37,048 nucleotides of DNA, from positions 1 through 37,048 of the forward strand of contig JABBCA010000004.1 in assembly GCA_018607135.1 (NCBI GenBank). The letters are read 5' to 3'. Every line of letters begins with the position of its first letter. The first letter of the stretch is position 1. This document shows, piece by piece, positions 16,601 to 36,834 of the stretch. This stretch comes from Opitutales bacterium (GTDB taxonomy: Bacteria > Verrucomicrobiota > Verrucomicrobiia > Opitutales > Coraliomargaritaceae). Position numbers and translations under genes: made by a program. Below the pieces are notes generated by a model. It saw only the letters and a list, made by a program, of their open reading frames with translations, was not told the origin of the DNA and did not search any database.

Positions 16601-17953
16601 CTAGATGCCTACCAATGCACCTGAGCTGTCGCCGAAGCGTGGCACTGTGCCACCTGCTTTTTCGAGCATGGCGCAGTAGAGGTTGCACATGGGCTCGTCT
16701 TTATATATTAGGTGGCGATTTCCTTCGACCGCGCCGCCTGCTAAAATGACGGGGAGGTTATTGTGCTTGTGGCGATTTCCGTCGCTGATCGCGCCTCCGT
16801 AGACGAGCATGCAACTGTCGGCTAAGGTGCGATTGGCTCCGTCTGGTGTCTTGGAAAGTTTCTCAAGGAAGCGCGCGAAGGCTTGTAGGTAAAACTCATC
16901 GATTGCTTTAAGATCTTCAATTTTGCCGACGTCGCCTCGGTGGTGAGAGAGTTGATGGTGTCCAGAGTGGATCCCTAGTTCTGGGAATGAACGCCCAGAG
17001 CCGTCGTGCGCTTGTAAAAAGGTGATCACGCGGGTGGAATCGGTCTGAAATGCCAACAGCATTAGATCATACATGGCGTCTAAATATTCGCTGTAGTTGG
17101 CGGGGATTCCAATGGGAAGTTGGATATCTTTAGGAATATCGTTGGGGTCGAAGGCCTTGGTTTGCAGGCGATGCTCGACTGCGCGCAATGAGGTGTAATA
17201 TTCCTCCAGTTGATCGCGATCTTCCGAACTGATTTTACGATTCAATCGCGCCGTGTCGTTGCGGAGTGTGTCGAGGATGCTCTTTTGGCGCAGCATGCGA
17301 TGCTCCATGAGTGCGAGTTCCTTAGGGTCGCTGGCGCCAAAGAGTTGTTTGAATACATCGCGCGGGTTGACTTGCGGCGGGAGCGGGCTGCGCTCGTTTT
17401 GCCACGCGATATTGTATTGATAGGCGCAACTGTAGCCACTGTCGCAGGTGCCGCTGGATCTGGCATTGGTGGCGGACAGTTCGAGTGAGCGAAAACGACT
17501 GCCATTGCTTAAATGATCGGCGGCCACTTGGTCGAAGGAACGCCCAAGCTGGATGTCTTTGCCGCCGGTCTTTTTGGCTTGGGCACCGGTTAAAAAGGTC
17601 GCGGTGGCGCGTGCGTGATCGCCGGGGCCGTCTCCATTGCCGTTGGCCCGCTTGTGCTCAAGGCCGCTGATCACATTCACGTAGCGGCGCAGAGGGTCGA
17701 GTGGTTTTAGGGTTCGTGTGAGGTCGTTGGTTAAACGGCCAGCAGCACCCGCATTCCAGTTGTCTTGGATGACGCCGTTCGGATGGTAAATAAATGCCAT
17801 GCGGGTCGGCGCTGTTGGGTGGCCACTTTGAGCTGCTGCTTTGAGCGACTGCAGGGGCACGAGCGATTCTAAGAAAGGCAGTGCAATCACAGAGCCCATA
17901 CCTCGGAGGAACGTTCTGCGGGGTAGTTTACGGGCTGGCTGTGAGGGGTTCAT
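16601..17953 (-). CDS. DUF1552 protein, Tat-exported
   Basis: A 450-residue protein starting with a twin-arginine signal (RRTFLRGMG at residues 12-20, then a hydrophobic stretch to about 41). Downstream it carries DUF1552 features: MAFIYHPNGV, the HARATATFLTGAQ block, and the late LGIHSGHHQLSHHRGD histidine-rich stretch followed by DSCMLVYGGAISDGNRHKHNNLPVILAGG. The histidine and aspartate content suggests a metal site, perhaps phosphatase/sulfatase-like, but no activity is established. It starts 16 bp after the DUF1592-type gene, the standard pairing in Planctomycetes and Verrucomicrobia, and would act in the periplasm after folding with its cofactor. Confidence 0.9.
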   Translation of the reverse strand: MNPSQPARKLPRRTFLRGMGSVIALPFLESLVPLQSLKAAAQSGHPTAPTRMAFIYHPNGVIQDNWNAGAAGRLTNDLTRTLKPLDPLRRYVNVISGLEHKRANGNGDGPGDHARATATFLTGAQAKKTGGKDIQLGRSFDQVAADHLSNGSRFRSLELSATNARSSGTCDSGYSCAYQYNIAWQNERSPLPPQVNPRDVFKQLFGASDPKELALMEHRMLRQKSILDTLRNDTARLNRKISSEDRDQLEEYYTSLRAVEHRLQTKAFDPNDIPKDIQLPIGIPANYSEYLDAMYDLMLLAFQTDSTRVITFLQAHDGSGRSFPELGIHSGHHQLSHHRGDVGKIEDLKAIDEFYLQAFARFLEKLSKTPDGANRTLADSCMLVYGGAISDGNRHKHNNLPVILAGGAVEGNRHLIYKDEPMCNLYCAMLEKAGGTVPRFGDSSGALVGI

Positions 17954-17969
17954 GAGTGGTCTGGTGGGG

Positions 17970-20243
17970 TTACTTAATTAGACCTATTGAAGCAGGTTTT
18001 GCGGTTGGTGCAAATTCATTGGTCAGTGCGCGGATCATTGCAGGGAATCGATAGTCTTGGCGGCGGGTTGTGTCGGCGATTCGTTGCAGGGCGGCTTCGT
18101 CTCGCCAATCGAGGCCACGGCCTGCGGCGTAGATGGAGAGTTTGCGAGCCATGTTGAGAATGAAGTCGTTGCTGCGTTGGGTCTCAAAGTAGGTAGCAAG
18201 TTGCGCGGGATTTGCGATCTCGGTGCCGTCGAAGAGTTCTTCGGAGGTGAGTTGCTTGCGTTCCTCCAGGCTGCGCAGGCCGCCGACTCCGTCGTAGTGC
18301 TCCAGGGCTAGGCCGAAGGGGTCCATGATGTTGTGGCACGAGGCGCAGTCAGGGTTGTCGCGGTGTAGCGCGAGGCTTGCTCTCAGGTCACTAGGGTCGG
18401 GCTTGCCGCTGGTTCGAGGGAGCGAGGGAATGTTATCGGGTGGTGGAGGTGGCGACAGGCCTAAGATGTTTTCGAGTATCCATTGTCCACGTAGCACTGG
18501 GCTGGTGTGATTGGGATATGAGGTAATGGTTAAGATACCGCCTTGGCTCCAGACGCCTCGGCGTGGCGTCTCTTTGATCGATACCTGACGGAAGGAATTT
18601 CCGTGCACGCCTTCGATGCCATAGTGCTGGGCAAGGCGTTCATTCAAGAAAGTGTAATCGGCATTCAGAAAATCGAGGAGTGGGCGGTCTTGCTTGAGAA
18701 CATGTAAAAAGAAGCGCTTGGTTTCCTGCTTCATCGACCAAAGTAGCTTGCGACTTTGGACATCGTAAACTCTGCGGTCGGGTTTGTGGATATCGAGGTC
18801 TCTTAGGCGCCACCATTGCCCTGCAAAATTATCTGCAAGCGCGTCTGCTTTGGGTGACTGAAGCATGCGTCCCAATTCAGCGTCGAGCTGACTATTGAGC
18901 TCGTTGCGACCAGCTAACTGAAACAGCCGATCATCGGGCATTGAGCTCCAGAGAAAATAGGAAAGCCAACTGGCGAGTGCGAATTCGCCATGCTGCTCTG
19001 GATCTTCTAAACGAAAGAGGAATGATGGAGAAGTGAGCACTGCATCGATGACCGCGTAGATGCCGTTTCGCACCTTACGATCATCGTTGAGATAATTGCT
19101 GTTTTTTAAGAAGACAGACCATAAGTCATCGGCTTCTTCTGAAAGTGCGGGGCGACGGTATGCGCGGCTCGCAAAGCGATGTATGCCGTCGCGTAGTTCT
19201 TTGGTCGAAAGTTGCTCGGGAATCGATCCAAAGTGGCGATCTAGGAATGGGCTGCTGATATCCTCTTTACTTTGAGTGGGCCCCTTGATGTGAACATCAT
19301 GAACGTTTAAGTTGCGGTCTTGCTGCTCGGTTTTGGTCTTTTTGTAGAAATCTTCGACGAGGCGAATCTCTAGTTTGTATTCGCCTGCTTGGTCGACTTG
19401 CACAGTGGCTGTGATGCGGTTAGGAGTGTCATCTTGGCTCGCGGTGATTTCGTAGTGCCCCAGTTTTTTGCCATTCAAGCGTATTTCTGCCACCGCGTTT
19501 TCTGGACCGGCTTGTTGAGCCGAGAATGTCAGTTGTAATTCGTAACTGCCATTTCCCGGAAAGAATACCATTTGCCAGATCGCATACTTTTCACCGTCAG
19601 CGTAGATGGTTCGGCCTAGCTCGTAATCGTGCCCTCCTGTGAACTCTTTCACGGAGAGCGCCCATTCATCGAATGCTAGCATTTGTGGAACTGCGATCTG
19701 TGCCGCGCGGGCGGACGCGTCAAAATAGCGTTCGATAAGTAAAGGTGAAATGGAAAGTGCTGAAGCGATGTTATCAAATCCGTAACCGGCATCATCGGCG
19801 GGCAGCGATTCGCTCCAGTCTCCATCTAGAAAGAGCAAATCGTTGATGGTATTGCTAAATTCGACTCGATTGAGTCTGCGCAGTGCGGCGGACTGCGAGT
19901 CGTAATCTGCGGCTTGCTGTATCAATTCATGACCGACTTTGGTGACGAGTTCCTTGCGCCGTAATGGAGGTAAATTACGCCCATCTGGGTGGGGCATGTA
20001 GTGGGTGCGCAGTGCTTGTAAAACTTGAGTCCACTTTTCTGGATTGGCTGCGAGGTCTGATTCTTGGTCGATACTCGTGATGTCTAAGTCGGCATCTGGA
20101 TGATCATCGCTATGGCATTCCGAACAATACTTGTCGAGTGATTGAGCCGTGGCTTCCCATGACAGTATCTCAACTGAATCACTGGCATGAGTGATTAGGC
20201 CAGTTGCTAAGAATATGAGTAGACGTCGGTAACAAAGGGGCAT
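17970..20243 (-). CDS. DUF1592/DUF1588/DUF1585 multi-domain CxxCH protein
   Basis: A 757-residue exported protein with a signal peptide ending near residue 20. Residues 40-44 (CSECH) form a c-type haem motif in an N-terminal cytochrome-like domain. The DUF1587-like segment (LRRLNRVEFSNTINDLL) follows, then a beta-rich, carbohydrate-binding-like insert at about residues 200-310 (FPGNGSYELQLTF...). The DUF1595/1592/1588 blocks include SPSFLFRLEDPE and LSYFLWSSMPDDRLF. A second CxxCH lies at residues 633-637 (CASCHNIMDPFGLALEHYD), followed by the DUF1585 tail. It probably carries haem in the periplasm, but its substrate is unknown. The DUF1552 gene follows after 16 bp. Confidence 0.92.
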   Translation of the reverse strand: MPLCYRRLLIFLATGLITHASDSVEILSWEATAQSLDKYCSECHSDDHPDADLDITSIDQESDLAANPEKWTQVLQALRTHYMPHPDGRNLPPLRRKELVTKVGHELIQQAADYDSQSAALRRLNRVEFSNTINDLLFLDGDWSESLPADDAGYGFDNIASALSISPLLIERYFDASARAAQIAVPQMLAFDEWALSVKEFTGGHDYELGRTIYADGEKYAIWQMVFFPGNGSYELQLTFSAQQAGPENAVAEIRLNGKKLGHYEITASQDDTPNRITATVQVDQAGEYKLEIRLVEDFYKKTKTEQQDRNLNVHDVHIKGPTQSKEDISSPFLDRHFGSIPEQLSTKELRDGIHRFASRAYRRPALSEEADDLWSVFLKNSNYLNDDRKVRNGIYAVIDAVLTSPSFLFRLEDPEQHGEFALASWLSYFLWSSMPDDRLFQLAGRNELNSQLDAELGRMLQSPKADALADNFAGQWWRLRDLDIHKPDRRVYDVQSRKLLWSMKQETKRFFLHVLKQDRPLLDFLNADYTFLNERLAQHYGIEGVHGNSFRQVSIKETPRRGVWSQGGILTITSYPNHTSPVLRGQWILENILGLSPPPPPDNIPSLPRTSGKPDPSDLRASLALHRDNPDCASCHNIMDPFGLALEHYDGVGGLRSLEERKQLTSEELFDGTEIANPAQLATYFETQRSNDFILNMARKLSIYAAGRGLDWRDEAALQRIADTTRRQDYRFPAMIRALTNEFAPTAKPASIGLIK

Positions 20244-29579: not shown

Positions 29580-30715
29580 TTGCCAACGACTTACGAAAAT
29601 TTAAAAAAATACGCATTGAAGACGCAATTAACCATTTTTTTAGCCGCGTTGGCGGGTTGGATGAACCGCAAACAGCATGATGTGATCATGTATCTGCATG
29701 CGGAGAACGAAATCCTCAAAGAACAGCTGGAGAAGAAAGGCGTGAAACTGAAATTGAGCAATACTCAAAGGCGAAAGTTGGCAAAGCGCGGAAAAAAGCT
29801 AGGTCGCAAGGGGTTGTTGGACTACGCGAGTATTGTGTCGCCTGATACATACTATACTGGCATCGTAAGTTGGTCGCGCTCAAATACACAGCGAAACGCA
29901 AGATCAACACAGAGCGCCAGAAGGAGATGGAGCTGATCAAAGAGTTCTGCGTGAAGTTTGCGGAGGAGAACCTGACATGGGGCTATGGCCGTATTCAAGG
30001 CGCACTGGAGAATATCGGTTACATAATTTGTGAAGCAACAGTTGCTAATATTCTGAAAGCCGCTGGTATCCTTCCGGCTCCGGAGCGGATGAAGAAGAGT
30101 AACTGGAAGCAATTCGTTCGCTCTCATATGGATACGATTTGCGTGGCAGATTTTCTGACAACAGAGGTTTGGACGGTGAGGGGACTGGTTCGTTACCATA
30201 CGCTGTTCGTCATGAACTTAGCAAAGCGACAGGTGCAAATCGCACAGATCAACTGCCAAATGAACGGGGAAGTGATGGCGCAAGTTGCTCGTAATCTTAC
30301 CGATTCAGAGGACGGATTTCTTCAAGGTATGGAATACTTCGTGTGCGACCATGATACTCTCTTTACGAAGCAGTTTGAAGCGATCCTTGATAGCTCGGAT
30401 GTGAAGGTCTTACGAACTCGAGTGGCAACGCCGCAACAAAACGGCTTCGCAGAGCGATTCGTGAAAAGCATTAAAGAAGAGTGCTTGAACAAGCTAATCT
30501 TCTTCGGTGAAAATTCGCTAAAACGAGCTGTAAACGAGTATGTTGAACATTACCATCACGAGCGAAATCACCAAGGATTGGATAATCTAATTCCGTTCCC
30601 ACATGCCCCTAGGAATAAGGGGCAGAGCGGTTCAGTCGTAAAATTTGAACGGCTCGGCGGGTTGTTAAATTACTATCATCGAGGAAATGGAAAGGAGGTG
30701 CCGCGAATCGCGTAA
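29580..30715 (+). pseudogene. Frameshifted rve-type transposase gene
   Basis: Two overlapping frames together give one transposase of a type frequent in Planctomycetes/Verrucomicrobia. Frame one (29580-29936, TTG start) supplies LAALAGWMNRKQHDVI, HAENEILKEQL and the SPDT segment. The homologous continuation (YWHRKLVALKYTAKRK) is in another frame from about 29855, running to 30715. The five bases 29850-29854 stand where two codons are expected, so one base is missing. The rve domain retains Asp94, Asp160 and Glu195 of the second frame (VADF, VCDHDTLF, GFAERFVKSIKEE). No slippery heptamer is present, so this is more likely a mutation than programmed frameshifting. Terminal inverted repeats were not identified. 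Confidence 0.85.
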
Positions 30716-30765: not shown

Positions 30766-30809
30766 GCGAAAACGGATAGAATTCCAATTTGAATTCTATC
30801 CGTTTTCGC
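30766..30809. repeat. Perfect 19-bp inverted repeat, 6-nt loop
   Basis: Bases 30766-30784 (beginning GCGAAAACGG) are an exact reverse complement of 30791-30809, with CAATTT between. There is no mismatch over 19 bp. It lies 50 bp past the transposase stop. There is no T-tract beyond the stem, so it is not a standard intrinsic terminator on either strand. Confidence 0.85.
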
Positions 30810-31203: not shown

Positions 31204-33030
31204 TCACATCACCTCGCCGAGATGGACTAAGCTCTGGTCCTTGCGTAGAGCTTTTAAGAACTGGGCATGCAAAGTTTTGAGCCTGTAAGAGTATTCGCTA
31301 TTTATTTCCGCTGTATTATTCCCATTCAACTTAGAGTTTTGGCCTTCGATCACGCCATCCCTGAAAGCTTCGAACATATAGAAGCGATTTTTCGGGTTTT
31401 TACTGAAAGGTTTGCGACTTAAGGGCTGAATCTTGTCGGCGGAGGGGCACTGAATAGATCCATTTTTTGTGTAGGAATTATGGTAGACGGAATTGGCGAT
31501 GGCCGTCATAAAGTCATCATCCGCGCCTAGCTCTGGGGTCGCATCATGCACCAACATCACTCCTTGCATCGAGTGCGAAAAATGGCCTACATCATCCGCC
31601 CCACCAAGTAGAAGGCCATTGACCCTTTTAGTTCTACCGCCGGCAATATAGGGATAGTAAAAATAAGTTTTACCATCATCTTCGGTGTATAAGCATCCTT
31701 CGCGCTTCCAGTTTTTGAAATATTCCTGGATGCACTTCCTGTAGCGGTCAATCTGTGGATTCAACGTAGTTGTCTCCCTGATCGCCTGCAGATCCTCAAG
31801 CGCGGCAGTTGTCATGGCAAGCGTGCCAATTCCATTCAGGGCACGGTTAAAGGCACGGCGCCTGAAATCGTCTGCCAGTGCTTTTGGGATGCCCATTTCC
31901 GAATCGAGCCCAACATCCCCCTCGCAGACGGGTTTCAGCGTTGCGACGATGGCTTTGAGAAAGCTTTCGGCCTCCGCAAGCTCTTGCTGGCTGACCTGAT
32001 CGGGATGTTTCCGAGCTAGCTGTAAGGTGAGTCTAGCCGAGACGGCCATAGAATACATGAACGCCATTCCTTCGGGATCGCTTGCCTTGAGTGCAGCCAC
32101 GTCAGGATACTCGACGCATAGATCTCGGTAATGCCGAGCTGAGACACGGAGGGACTCAAGGATACGCTGATCGCCAGTAGCACGGTAGGCTTGGTAGAAG
32201 GTCAGCCAGTTTCCGACTGGAAAGAAAAACCGCATGCCCATGAACTGTTCCAACGAGGCCATGGGTTCTTCGAAGGGCGTTTCCAGAATGCTGTAATCTA
32301 GGGCCAGCGTCTCTTGGATTAGAAGGTCAATTTCCTGCTTTGTCGGCAGGTGCTCGGTGGAGAAGGGTTTCGGTGTCCACCCCTCAGGGCTTATGAACTC
32401 GGGTGTAGAGGGCATTTCTTTCAACGCTGCCATGGATGCCGTAGTCAGGCTGGGACCCCGCTCAATGCAGTGTTCACAGACGAAGGCTCCCGCCTTTTTC
32501 GCTTCTCTCTGGGTCATGGGCACGTGGTTACTGTTGACGAGAAAACGGTGGCACCCAGCCAGTTGCCATTTTAACGCGCCACTTTTCAGTGTTTGAACGA
32601 TGCCAGGCGCCTCTTCAGGGATTAGCTTCTCCGGATACATCCGACGGTATCCCTCAAAGCAGCAGCGGCTTCGCCCTGATTGTCCGGATTCGCCAATGCG
32701 CCAGCCTTCCATGTCGGCCAGTTCCAGTGTAATGATCTTCTTTTTGTCTATGAGCAGTAAATCTGGGCAGTTTTCTTCATGAACGCGCATCCAGAGAGCA
32801 TCGCAGTAGGCCTTGGTATTTGGGGCATAGGCCTTCTCGGGGATCTTGAGCCACTGCTTTCTAGCCTTTGCGCCTTTCCGGCCATATTTGCTATAGTCGA
32901 TAACGTTCTCGACGTTTTTGGCGACGGCAGTAGCGCCTGTTTTCTCTGCGGCCTGTGTGGTGCCAGTGAGCAGAAGTCCAAGGGAAAGCATTCCCATAAT
33001 AAATAGTCCATGGGGTAATTTTGTATTCAT
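31204..33030 (-). CDS. Large exported protein of unknown function, toroid-like C-terminus
   Basis: A 608-residue protein with a signal peptide ending TTQAAE (cleavage near residue 28). The N-terminal part (residues 60-195) holds seven cysteines at 76, 88, 123, 124, 160, 185 and 188, including FVCEHC, and may be disulfide-linked or metal-binding. Residues about 230-560 are helical with repeated helix pairs and aromatic loops (WLTFYQAYRATGDQRILESLRVSARHY, YFYYPYIAGGRTKRVNGLLLGG, GHFSHSMQGVML), suggesting an (alpha/alpha) toroid as in polysaccharide lyases, epimerases and glycosidases. No catalytic pair could be assigned. It lies beyond a tRNA and a broken transposase and is divergent from the 1131-residue gene. 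Confidence 0.7.
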   Translation of the reverse strand: MNTKLPHGLFIMGMLSLGLLLTGTTQAAEKTGATAVAKNVENVIDYSKYGRKGAKARKQWLKIPEKAYAPNTKAYCDALWMRVHEENCPDLLLIDKKKIITLELADMEGWRIGESGQSGRSRCCFEGYRRMYPEKLIPEEAPGIVQTLKSGALKWQLAGCHRFLVNSNHVPMTQREAKKAGAFVCEHCIERGPSLTTASMAALKEMPSTPEFISPEGWTPKPFSTEHLPTKQEIDLLIQETLALDYSILETPFEEPMASLEQFMGMRFFFPVGNWLTFYQAYRATGDQRILESLRVSARHYRDLCVEYPDVAALKASDPEGMAFMYSMAVSARLTLQLARKHPDQVSQQELAEAESFLKAIVATLKPVCEGDVGLDSEMGIPKALADDFRRRAFNRALNGIGTLAMTTAALEDLQAIRETTTLNPQIDRYRKCIQEYFKNWKREGCLYTEDDGKTYFYYPYIAGGRTKRVNGLLLGGADDVGHFSHSMQGVMLVHDATPELGADDDFMTAIANSVYHNSYTKNGSIQCPSADKIQPLSRKPFSKNPKNRFYMFEAFRDGVIEGQNSKLNGNNTAEINSEYSYRLKTLHAQFLKALRKDQSLVHLGEVM

Positions 33031-33438: not shown

Positions 33439-36400
33439 ATGAAAAACAAAACGCTGCTTCACTTTAAGGGTCTCCTCGCCAGCCTTTACCTCCTCGTTCT
33501 CCCTGCGACTGCATTCGCAGATGCCCCACGATGGTTCGCGGTTGATGAGCTGAGCGGCGACTGGGAAGGTATCATTACCCTCCAGAATAACCATAGCTGG
33601 AAAATAGAGCTGAGTATTCAAGACGCGCTCACCAACTATGAAAATGAGAAGGTTCAATCTGAACCTACACGTCTAGAAGTCATCAGATCGAACCGTCAGA
33701 TACTTTCTACGGGGGCAGTTCCTCAAGAGAGTCCAGCAGTAGCGAATAAACAAGGCGAAGTTACAGCGACTGCACGCAAAAAGATAGACCGATCCCAAAA
33801 GAAAGCTGAGGCCGCCCTGACGCTTGACAAAGAAAGGCAAGGACTACTACCCCCATCTGCAAAAGAATTCACAGGCGTGATAAAGTTCGTCTCTCTCAAT
33901 GCGGGCGAAGATAATTATAACAGAGATACGGTTTTGGAAAGGCGTGAAGATAGCCGCGGCGAGATCAAAGTGTTCGGCAGCATGAATCCACTCAGTGGTG
34001 AATTCGTGATCACTCATGCCAGAGAATATCTAAAGACACCCAGATCCTTAGGTTATGGTCGATGGCAACTTCGCGGCGTGTTCAATAAATCTTCGCCGTC
34101 TCTCTGCGGCTGGGCCGGCGGGATTAACACAGATTATTACAGCCCATTTGTTTTTGTTCCCAAGGGCCATGCCGATGACAGTTTTTACGCACCTTTCGAC
34201 ACCTCGCTCGATAGTGTTCAGTCTAAAGAAAATGCCGCAGCCATTGGCGAATCTGAAAGTGCAATCGACCGAGCTTATGATCTTAAATTTGCCGAATTAA
34301 TCAACGTTAAGAAGCAGAAACAGGCCGAAAACGATAAAATTTATCGGTCTTTATTACATCAACTAAAGCAGGACCCGAATTCAACAGACATAGATATTCC
34401 AAAGGTAGACAGTCTTTCGGAGAAAACGTCCGAGATACGTGTTAGGAACAGAGCAGACGACGCAACACCAGGCTCATGGAACGATCATTACGGTAAGATC
34501 TCCACATGGAGTGCGGCTTCCAATCAGGCGATCAAAGAGTGGTTTGATGCGGAAAATAAAAAATTCGAAGTTTATGCCTCGCAAATAAAAGACGATTATC
34601 AAGCTGAACGCGAACGAATCGGGAATGAAGAAAAGTCACGGAATATGGCTTTGCGCAGCGAGGCAAAAGAGCGTCGTAGCGTCCTTTCTGACAAACGAAA
34701 GAGTTTCAGGAATGAGCTAAAAGAAGACCCAACTGGGGAAAACATAAATATTCCCAACAGCTCCGAGATCGACACAAGCCTGAGCGTGAAGGAGCAACTC
34801 AACCAATGGTATAAAGCAGAAAGTGAGAAAATAAAATCTTGGCAGGCCACAGAAAGAGCCTCGCTGAAAACATGGGCAGATGATGCAGAGGACGCCGCCC
34901 GGAAACGATACCAGCAACGCGATTTTGAACACAATGAAAAGCGACAAGCGATCCAAGATGATTACTCGATGCGCAAAGGAGCTATTCGTTCAAAAACGCA
35001 AGAACTGGTTAACTTGCTTCAAGATGATAAAAGCGGATCCAGCCTAGTTATCCCAGAGGTTGCCGTGGCGCCGTCTGTGCAAAACCCGGTGAAGGAGTCG
35101 GAATCCTCCCCGCGCACTCGTGTGAGAGAATGGTATGCAGCAGTCGAGAGCCAGAGGAAAGAGTGGTATGAGCAGGCGTATAAGAAATTACAAAAAGAGC
35201 GGGCTGCAGAATTTGCGCAGGCAAACCAAGGGAATAAGACAGCACTAAACTTTGATGCAGAAAAAATCACGCAGTGGATTCAAAGTATGGATGATGAGAA
35301 TCCAGAGTTGCGAAAAAAATCGAATTATTATTTAAGTGAACTCGGTCCGAGCTATCGAAATTTGCTACGAGACGAGCTCTTTTTACCCGCCTTTGGTGTG
35401 GCTTTCGACGACCTTGACTCTGACGCTCGAGATGTCCTCTGGCGCGCGTTTGGAGGAAGCCCAAACGACAAAGGCCTCACGTTGCCCAAAGAAGTCACTC
35501 AAGGAGCCTCCTCAAAACTTAAAGAAATGATCCGCAGATCTTACCTATATCATCTCGCGTGCTTACGGCTGCAAAGAGAGTTGGATTTGTGGAAGCAGGA
35601 ATTGATACAATCCGTGAAGGATACGCAGCCTCAGCTCGGTTCTTTCAGGCAACTCATGGCAAAAGAAGCTACCGCTGCGATTTGGCTTAAACATTTCCGA
35701 TTGCATGAACAAGATGCCGTAAGTCTGGTTATTGACAACGCAAAGCATAGGATCGCAGATGAAGTCATAGTCGCTAGAGCAAAACAAACCGTTAAAATCT
35801 CTAAAGATGAATCCAGTCTCCCTCGACTTCTGTATTTCTGGAACCAACAGAATGATATCTACTCTTACACATCGAAGAACGGGCGACATCTAGCAGACAC
35901 AGTTATTGATAATAAAATAGACACACTTGTGTCCGCTACGATCAATCGAATTAACGAGGATTTGAAGAATATCGGAACTGGCCTTGGTGCCATTCATATT
36001 GGCTCTCGGTGGTATGCCAAGCTTCAGTCTTCATTGGGTGCTGCCATGAGCCGCCCAATAGTTGCTACTGCCGTCGCTGAATTACGAAAAAGCCGCGACA
36101 AGGATCTGATAAAAGCAATCCCCGAGATCAGCGCACGCATAAATGATATGACTGATAACGATACATTGCTAGATTTCGCAGATTCACTCTTAATCATTCC
36201 TGGCGATAAGTCGACGCAGGCAGGTCAGACAATTCAGACACTAGTCAACAAACAGCTGGCCGCAAACGATCTGGCGGCCTACATGGAGAATTTTTCGGCT
36301 TATGAACAATCATTGATGGATGAATTTGGAACAATCCAAGTTCCGAATGACTACCCTAAGCCGACTGCTGAAGAGATACAATTGGCGATCATTCGTGAAT

Positions 36401-36834
36401 TCGCCCGAAACGGTGGCAGGGTCCTTGACAAACAAACAGCTCTGCATGCGTTGCTGGGATTGTCAGATCTGAAGTTATTTTCAGAAATAACGATCAGCGG
36501 TTTGGATCTGCAAGGTGTTGGCAGAGACGACCACAATGGGTATCTTGCCTACTATTTTCATAGAATGACAGTTGAGCCAAGAGGCAGCTTGCAAGAACTT
36601 ATGGGGGCTGGATCTGGCATGAGTGGCCTCATCCAATATCTGTATGTTATGATGGACGCTACTGAACTTGAGGTGGTGCACAAATTTGTTCTAACACCTA
36701 GCGGCTGGGCTTCACCGTCCGTCAGGCGCAGTATTTTGTTGGGAACCTACATCAATCCGAACATTAGTGAGCGAGAAAGGACGAAACTCGCTCGCGATGT
36801 TCTCGACCGGCGTAAGGGGGCTCTGAAAAAATAG
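33439..36834 (+). CDS. 1131-residue exported protein with internal coiled-coil repeats
   Basis: A giant exported protein with a signal peptide (residues 1-27, ending AFADA). Residues 28-240 look beta-rich (SGDWEGIITL, GYGRWQLRGVF), perhaps a lipocalin-like or carbohydrate-binding domain. Residues about 270-600 are highly charged and helical, with three diverged repeats, each beginning with a Lys-rich helix and an acidic-IP motif (LKQDP...IDIP at 309-321, LKEDP...INIP at 427-439, LLQDD...LVIP at 526-539), then W-F/Y-x-A helices (W368, W457, W565) and long coiled coils. From 617 a HEAT-like helix pair (MDDENPELRKKSNYYLSELG) starts a helical C-terminal half. No family is recognised. An envelope scaffold or secreted structural role is a guess. 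Confidence 0.75.
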   Translation: MKNKTLLHFKGLLASLYLLVLPATAFADAPRWFAVDELSGDWEGIITLQNNHSWKIELSIQDALTNYENEKVQSEPTRLEVIRSNRQILSTGAVPQESPAVANKQGEVTATARKKIDRSQKKAEAALTLDKERQGLLPPSAKEFTGVIKFVSLNAGEDNYNRDTVLERREDSRGEIKVFGSMNPLSGEFVITHAREYLKTPRSLGYGRWQLRGVFNKSSPSLCGWAGGINTDYYSPFVFVPKGHADDSFYAPFDTSLDSVQSKENAAAIGESESAIDRAYDLKFAELINVKKQKQAENDKIYRSLLHQLKQDPNSTDIDIPKVDSLSEKTSEIRVRNRADDATPGSWNDHYGKISTWSAASNQAIKEWFDAENKKFEVYASQIKDDYQAERERIGNEEKSRNMALRSEAKERRSVLSDKRKSFRNELKEDPTGENINIPNSSEIDTSLSVKEQLNQWYKAESEKIKSWQATERASLKTWADDAEDAARKRYQQRDFEHNEKRQAIQDDYSMRKGAIRSKTQELVNLLQDDKSGSSLVIPEVAVAPSVQNPVKESESSPRTRVREWYAAVESQRKEWYEQAYKKLQKERAAEFAQANQGNKTALNFDAEKITQWIQSMDDENPELRKKSNYYLSELGPSYRNLLRDELFLPAFGVAFDDLDSDARDVLWRAFGGSPNDKGLTLPKEVTQGASSKLKEMIRRSYLYHLACLRLQRELDLWKQELIQSVKDTQPQLGSFRQLMAKEATAAIWLKHFRLHEQDAVSLVIDNAKHRIADEVIVARAKQTVKISKDESSLPRLLYFWNQQNDIYSYTSKNGRHLADTVIDNKIDTLVSATINRINEDLKNIGTGLGAIHIGSRWYAKLQSSLGAAMSRPIVATAVAELRKSRDKDLIKAIPEISARINDMTDNDTLLDFADSLLIIPGDKSTQAGQTIQTLVNKQLAANDLAAYMENFSAYEQSLMDEFGTIQVPNDYPKPTAEEIQLAIIREFARNGGRVLDKQTALHALLGLSDLKLFSEITISGLDLQGVGRDDHNGYLAYYFHRMTVEPRGSLQELMGAGSGMSGLIQYLYVMMDATELEVVHKFVLTPSGWASPSVRRSILLGTYINPNISERERTKLARDVLDRRKGALKK

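Follow-up and report, generated by a model that had tools for sequence, protein, structure and literature searches.

The linker chains of annelid haemoglobin join a small barrel to a coiled coil, but their domain order differs from that of the 1131-residue protein described here, they contain an LDL-A domain and they lack a helical rod; the likeness is one of architecture only. The tethering rods of the Exo70/CATCHR group are helical too, but eukaryotic and cytosolic. Calycin and lipocalin-like proteins (Blc, YxeF, SP_0198) form up-and-down barrels of eight strands. The calycin signature consists of Gly-X-Trp on strand A and an Arg on the last strand (PMC3367933). Finally, the FilP/Scy rods of Actinobacteria combine a small N-terminal domain with a rod of eleven-residue periodicity and have grown by intragenic duplication (PMC9858780). 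The 1131-residue protein may show a similar combination, which we regard as a parallel only: FilP and Scy are cytoplasmic, have an N-terminus of the DivIVA type, and no sequence relation to them was found or is expected.

The gene for this protein lies in a genome of 3.53 Mb in 106 contigs; the named carriers of related proteins (Pelagicoccus, Puniceicoccaceae, Opitutaceae) place it in the order Opitutales of the Verrucomicrobiota. The window, that is, the whole stretch of DNA analysed (37,048 nucleotides), is an entire contig, C22, which is not a contaminant: both other genomes of the genus share its acetolactate synthase-like gene at 96-97% identity. The list of open reading frames and the translation show a frame that is intact over 1131 codons; the product has only two cysteines, at residues 223 and 708. 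At 0.466, the GC3 of this gene is the lowest in the window (other genes, 0.476-0.645), a weak hint that it may have had a different history.

Table 1. Features of the gene for the 1131-residue protein (positions are those of the window).
Feature	Coordinates	Strand	Evidence
Whole gene, 1131 codons + stop	33439..36834	+	ORF and translation
Sec-type signal peptide, residues 1-27, AFA|DA site, no lipobox	33439..33519	+	hydropathy maximum 1.64 at residues 9-27; sequence reading
Probable beta domain, residues 28-250, G40-D-W42 near start, inserted charged loop ~66-140	33520..34188	+	position and G-x-W-x-G start as in family barrel
Helical stalk, residues 266-600; predicted helices 271-311, 359-429, 450-529, 558-595	34234..35238	+	model, pLDDT about 60-83 in 360-500, lower elsewhere
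Repeat unit R1, residues 297-417 (I-P 320, W357, W368)	34327..34689	+	BLASTP, profile and shuffle tests, Trp spacing
Repeat unit R2, residues 418-514 (I-P 438, W457, W468, W479)	34690..34980	+	BLASTP, profile and shuffle tests, Trp spacing
Repeat unit R3, residues 515-598, helix cut short (I-P 538, W565, W576)	34981..35232	+	BLASTP, profile and shuffle tests, Trp spacing
Helical rod common to Opitutales family, residues 599-955 (NLLRDELFLPAFGVAFDDL, SRWY)	35233..36303	+	profile 35.9 bits, hhalign 95%
C-terminal tail, residues 956-1131, without detectable relatives; a hairpin followed by helices, weakly modelled	36304..36831	+	family-tail score not above shuffles; pLDDT <50

According to the preliminary description, the protein belonged to no known family. 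This holds for the curated collections: there was no match in Pfam, NCBIfam, PHROGs or PADLOC and none meaningful among PDB sequences, and none of them claims the whole protein. It does not hold in general. Searches with the full-length protein found no relative in 372 genomes of the order, genome contigs, viral contigs or plasmids, and the sole route to relatives was a class-level search with the C-terminal piece: residues 601-1131, compared with 384 genomes of the class, recovered one frame of 861 residues (E = 0.0018). Its product has five clear relatives (32-39% identity) among 252 genomes of its GTDB family, and a profile of these six proteins matches residues 597-949 of the 1131-residue protein with 32 bits. 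When the coil was left out, the rod domain scored 35.9 bits (E = 2e-7 for a million proteins), as against at most 6.0 for 200 shuffled sequences and the reversed sequence, and hhalign aligned rod domain and family with a probability of 95% (E = 4.5e-8; 18% identity over 288 aligned columns). On this comparison we regard residues 599-955 as homologous to the rod of a rare, undescribed family of exported Opitutales proteins. Other weak matches, obtained with the N-terminal and the C-terminal piece (L010-L014, L016-L025), were set aside; the six examined (L010, L011, L012, L016, L017 and L024) are unrelated proteins.

A whole-genome search with the full family profile omitted the 1131-residue protein, since scoring was limited to two first-look candidates in each genome. 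A global alignment that put the N-terminus in the wrong place was left out of account. With a profile that included it, no other carrier was found among the 43 genomes of its own taxonomic family, nor in samples of 187 genomes of the order and 194 of the phylum. The C-terminal region of the family is not recognisable in it (score 9.6, against a shuffle mean of 13.9), and for this reason we file it as a divergent relative sharing one domain and not as a full member.

Members of the family, of about 850 residues, are found in Pelagicoccus sp. SDUM812002 and SDUM812005, Puniceicoccaceae bacterium K14 and metagenome-assembled Opitutaceae genomes (L033-L038, L039-L044). Like the 1131-residue protein they have a signal peptide, a G-x-W start of the N-terminal domain and the homologous helical domain; in their middle is a coiled coil, which the stalk of the 1131-residue protein may be as well. 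All six members carry a hydrophobic segment at the N-terminus together with a W-x-G start. Their coil, however, comprises about 90 residues without repeats, compared with about 330 residues of repeats here. Their C-terminal part consists of a conserved GPFGPDYPGAxYLNAxYRGD region and a tail with Cys, and these last ~230 residues have no recognisable counterpart in the 1131-residue protein. The model of relative L033 (mean pLDDT 76) contains a barrel (43-171), a coiled coil (199-264) and a helical domain (285-715; pLDDT about 90 over much of its length), followed by a long hairpin and helices. A family fold of lipocalin-like barrel, short coiled coil and helical rod is thus moderately supported by modelling. 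The C-terminal ~230 residues of L033-L038, in which the GPFGPDYPGAxYLNAxYRGD region is strongly conserved and the Cys-bearing tail has a long beta hairpin, are matched by no library. The coil of the same proteins (about 225-260) is close to the UVR motif of UvrB; the UvrB matches that family profile A2 drew there across the phylum were rejected, as the UVR coil looks alike.

The N-terminal region had been described as beta-rich, which is plausible from its position and motif, but the model is unreliable there (pLDDT about 28). Its G-D-W-E-G motif sits where the W-x-G start of the family barrel does, and residues 28-250 scored 17.7 against the family barrel profile, a marginal result given that the best of 60 shuffles reached 17.4. 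Position, motif and this marginal match together suggest that a barrel may be present. In L033, the protein for which the barrel was modelled, it is well defined, has eight strands and resembles the annelid linker barrel (Z 11.0, rmsd 4.3, 130 residues) and the lipocalin SP_0198 (Z 9.3, rmsd 2.4, 84 residues), a likeness of modelled fold. The Gly-X-Trp of the calycin signature is present in the 1131-residue protein and in five of the six relatives. By contrast, the last-strand Arg is not invariant, the corresponding sequences being PYVLKRG, PYVLSRG, PFILQQG, PYILQAG, PFVLEAG and PFCARRG in the relatives and SPFVFVPKG in the 1131-residue protein. Because only half of the signature is found, we call the family domain barrel-like and do not assign it to the calycins.

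Between the N-terminal region and the rod lies the stalk. The preliminary description proposed a three-fold repeat, and repeat detection returned significant self-similarity, so the proposal stands. With the units cut without overlap, BLASTP gave E = 7e-5 for R1-R2, 6e-5 for R2-R3 and 7e-4 for R1-R3, at about 22% identity, and profiles built from two units recognised the held-out third with 19.6, 21.8 and 14.5 bits. None of about 1000 shuffles per unit that preserve the heptad register matched the real scores; with the eleven-residue register preserved, 0, 1 and 1 per 1000 reached them for the three units. All of these statistics rest on non-overlapping units; a leave-one-out test with overlapping units gave inflated values and was discarded. 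Each unit leads from a helix end (L-x-x-x-D) through a loop with I-x-I-P (LVIP in R3) into a long charged helix, which starts with W-x-x-A-x(6)-K-x-W, the Lys being third from the end in every unit. The pattern first described was real as a repeat but one step out of register: its WFDA in R1 contains the second tryptophan, while WYKA in R2 and WYAA in R3 contain the first. The equivalent pairs are W357/W368, W457/W468 and W565/W576, exactly eleven residues apart in all three units, with a third tryptophan in R2. Four pairs in the stalk have this exact spacing; a Monte Carlo test that allowed every spacing from 2 to 30 gave P of about 1e-4, so the eleven-residue spacing is not due to chance. 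Distances between I-P landmarks (118 and 100) and between tryptophan landmarks (100 and 108) differ because the loops differ in length. The three-unit stalk, which would have arisen by ancient internal duplication, is so far unique to the 1131-residue protein; the rod domain has relatives.

The model of the whole protein was built from seven aligned sequences and has a mean pLDDT of 48, with a peak in the stalk (74-83 in residues 410-480). Two long stalk helices of 71 and 80 residues are modelled between outer ones of 41 and 38. These lengths would suit an antiparallel pair of long helices with a helix of half the length on either side. Hydrophobic periodicity of the long helices peaks at 3.64-3.66, significantly only in the second (H2, P = 0.03; H1, P = 0.16); a period of 3.65 is near the plain-helix value of 3.63 and so is no proof of a coiled coil. 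The eleven-spaced tryptophans may drive oligomerisation of the stalk. If each loop-plus-helix unit, with its two eleven-spaced tryptophans and its I-x-I-P corner, were a new modular block, units could stack antiparallel into an extensible ruler or fibre of the envelope whose length is set by unit number, a notion that we consider speculative and rather improbable.

We favour, with a probability of about 0.45, the reading that the 1131-residue protein is a stand-alone extracytoplasmic scaffold with a barrel-like end, a repeat stalk as spacer and a helical rod. No catalytic family matches it, which fits such a role; its presence in only one of the 43 genomes of its taxonomic family speaks against it. 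The earlier suggestion of a HEAT-like C-terminus is not confirmed: the model makes this half helical, but no HEAT fold and no other repeat family was matched, and neither Pfam nor NCBIfam gave a HEAT or armadillo profile match even at E values of 1 and 0.1. A solenoid scaffold of the HEAT type, interrupted by a coiled coil, is accordingly quite unlikely: the half is all-helical and helical rods (Exo70, cullin and spectrin) head the Foldseek list, but helix lengths are uneven, a repeated hairpin is missing, and the structural matches are mixed, with Z values of at most 8.2, which is noise for helical bundles, in a model of low to middling confidence. Exo70 itself, the top row for both models, was rejected: the match is not significant (E = 0.011 and 0.059), its full alignment has an rmsd of 24, and it lies below the noise level of helical bundles. 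A few low rows (Z about 6.3) reflect the resemblance of the long-helix outline to several helical toxins; a pore-forming or otherwise membrane-acting toxin is nevertheless hardly credible, as the stalk has no hydrophobic helix or hairpin, no toxin family was matched, and the relatives lack the stalk altogether.

Export, which had also been proposed, is borne out by the N-terminal signal peptide, called by hydropathy and inspection and the only export signal found; the protein very probably leaves the cytoplasm by it. The strongest later hydrophobic segment, residues 1004-1022, has a mean of 1.14, compared with 1.64 for the signal peptide, and does not resemble a membrane helix. On inspection the cleavage site has no Cys and no lipobox, and neither a second membrane segment, an outer-membrane barrel, a hydrophobic C-terminal segment nor a sorting signal of the LPXTG or PEP-CTERM kind was detected. 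The suggested surface tethering thus finds no anchor, and a periplasmic or secreted location is the best reading of the sequence. A surface-exposed adhesin or tether, whose stalk would carry the barrel off the outer membrane and let it hold on to polysaccharide or a neighbouring cell, would agree with export, with the long stalk and with the polysaccharide-degrading gene set nearby (GH9, GH77 and CBM60 domains); in the face of the missing anchor and of the unrelated neighbours of the relatives, we consider it unlikely. No neighbour of the family genes is conserved across the family outside one genus; since the neighbours of the relatives vary from genus to genus, the gene stands alone. Absence from the other 42 genomes, the minimal GC3, the IS3-type transposase 2.7 kb away and the unrecognisable last 230 residues of the family would all suit an accessory gene that was acquired or is decaying, with a stalk that selection no longer maintains, but the frame is intact and the key motifs of the common rod domain are kept (NLLRDELFLPAFG, RWY), which leaves this explanation improbable.

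Several other elements of the window deserve mention. A 608-residue protein encoded at 31204-33030 (- strand) is exported, has a Cys-rich stretch and matches nothing in Pfam or NCBIfam. The same genome has two paralogues of it (53% and 49%; contigs C69 and C15), and another genus of the family has a 69% relative; neither paralogue adjoins a gene like the 1131-codon one, and a partnership of the two neighbours is not supported. The IS3-type frames are located at 29580-29936 and 29870-30715, and just behind them is a perfect-looking palindrome (30766-30809; 22-nt arms, no loop), which may be a terminator or an element end. At 16601-20243 (- strand), a DUF1552 gene adjoins a gene of the PSD/PSCyt type (DUF1592/1588/1587/1585/1595) that carries a CBM60 domain, with GH9 and an AmpG-like transporter alongside, possibly a polysaccharide-use cluster.

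As a scaffold, the 1131-residue protein would be taken out of the cytoplasm by its signal peptide. The small N-terminal barrel-like domain, judging from the modelled fold of the relatives, would probably bind a ligand or a partner peptide, and the stalk of long charged helices would join it to the packed-helix rod, which probably docks on another component of the envelope. In place of the short coiled coil of the relatives, the three-unit stalk, presumably a product of old internal duplication, would serve as a spacer setting the end-to-end distance and may oligomerise through its eleven-spaced tryptophans. The function is probably structural. Being carried once in 43 genomes, the protein is accessory; it may be degenerating, or may have taken on a specialised task that goes beyond the role of the family.

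The genome encodes many uncharacterised proteins, and as one among them this protein is of modest interest. Nevertheless, an apparent orphan is here tied to a small family found in no curated library, and one lineage seems to have given an exported scaffold a longer stalk through internal duplication. Should the unit be a self-standing rod element, this would be a natural case in which a spacer evolves in length through the copy number of its units, in an envelope, that of the Verrucomicrobiota, which has been little studied, and the unit might serve as a design part.
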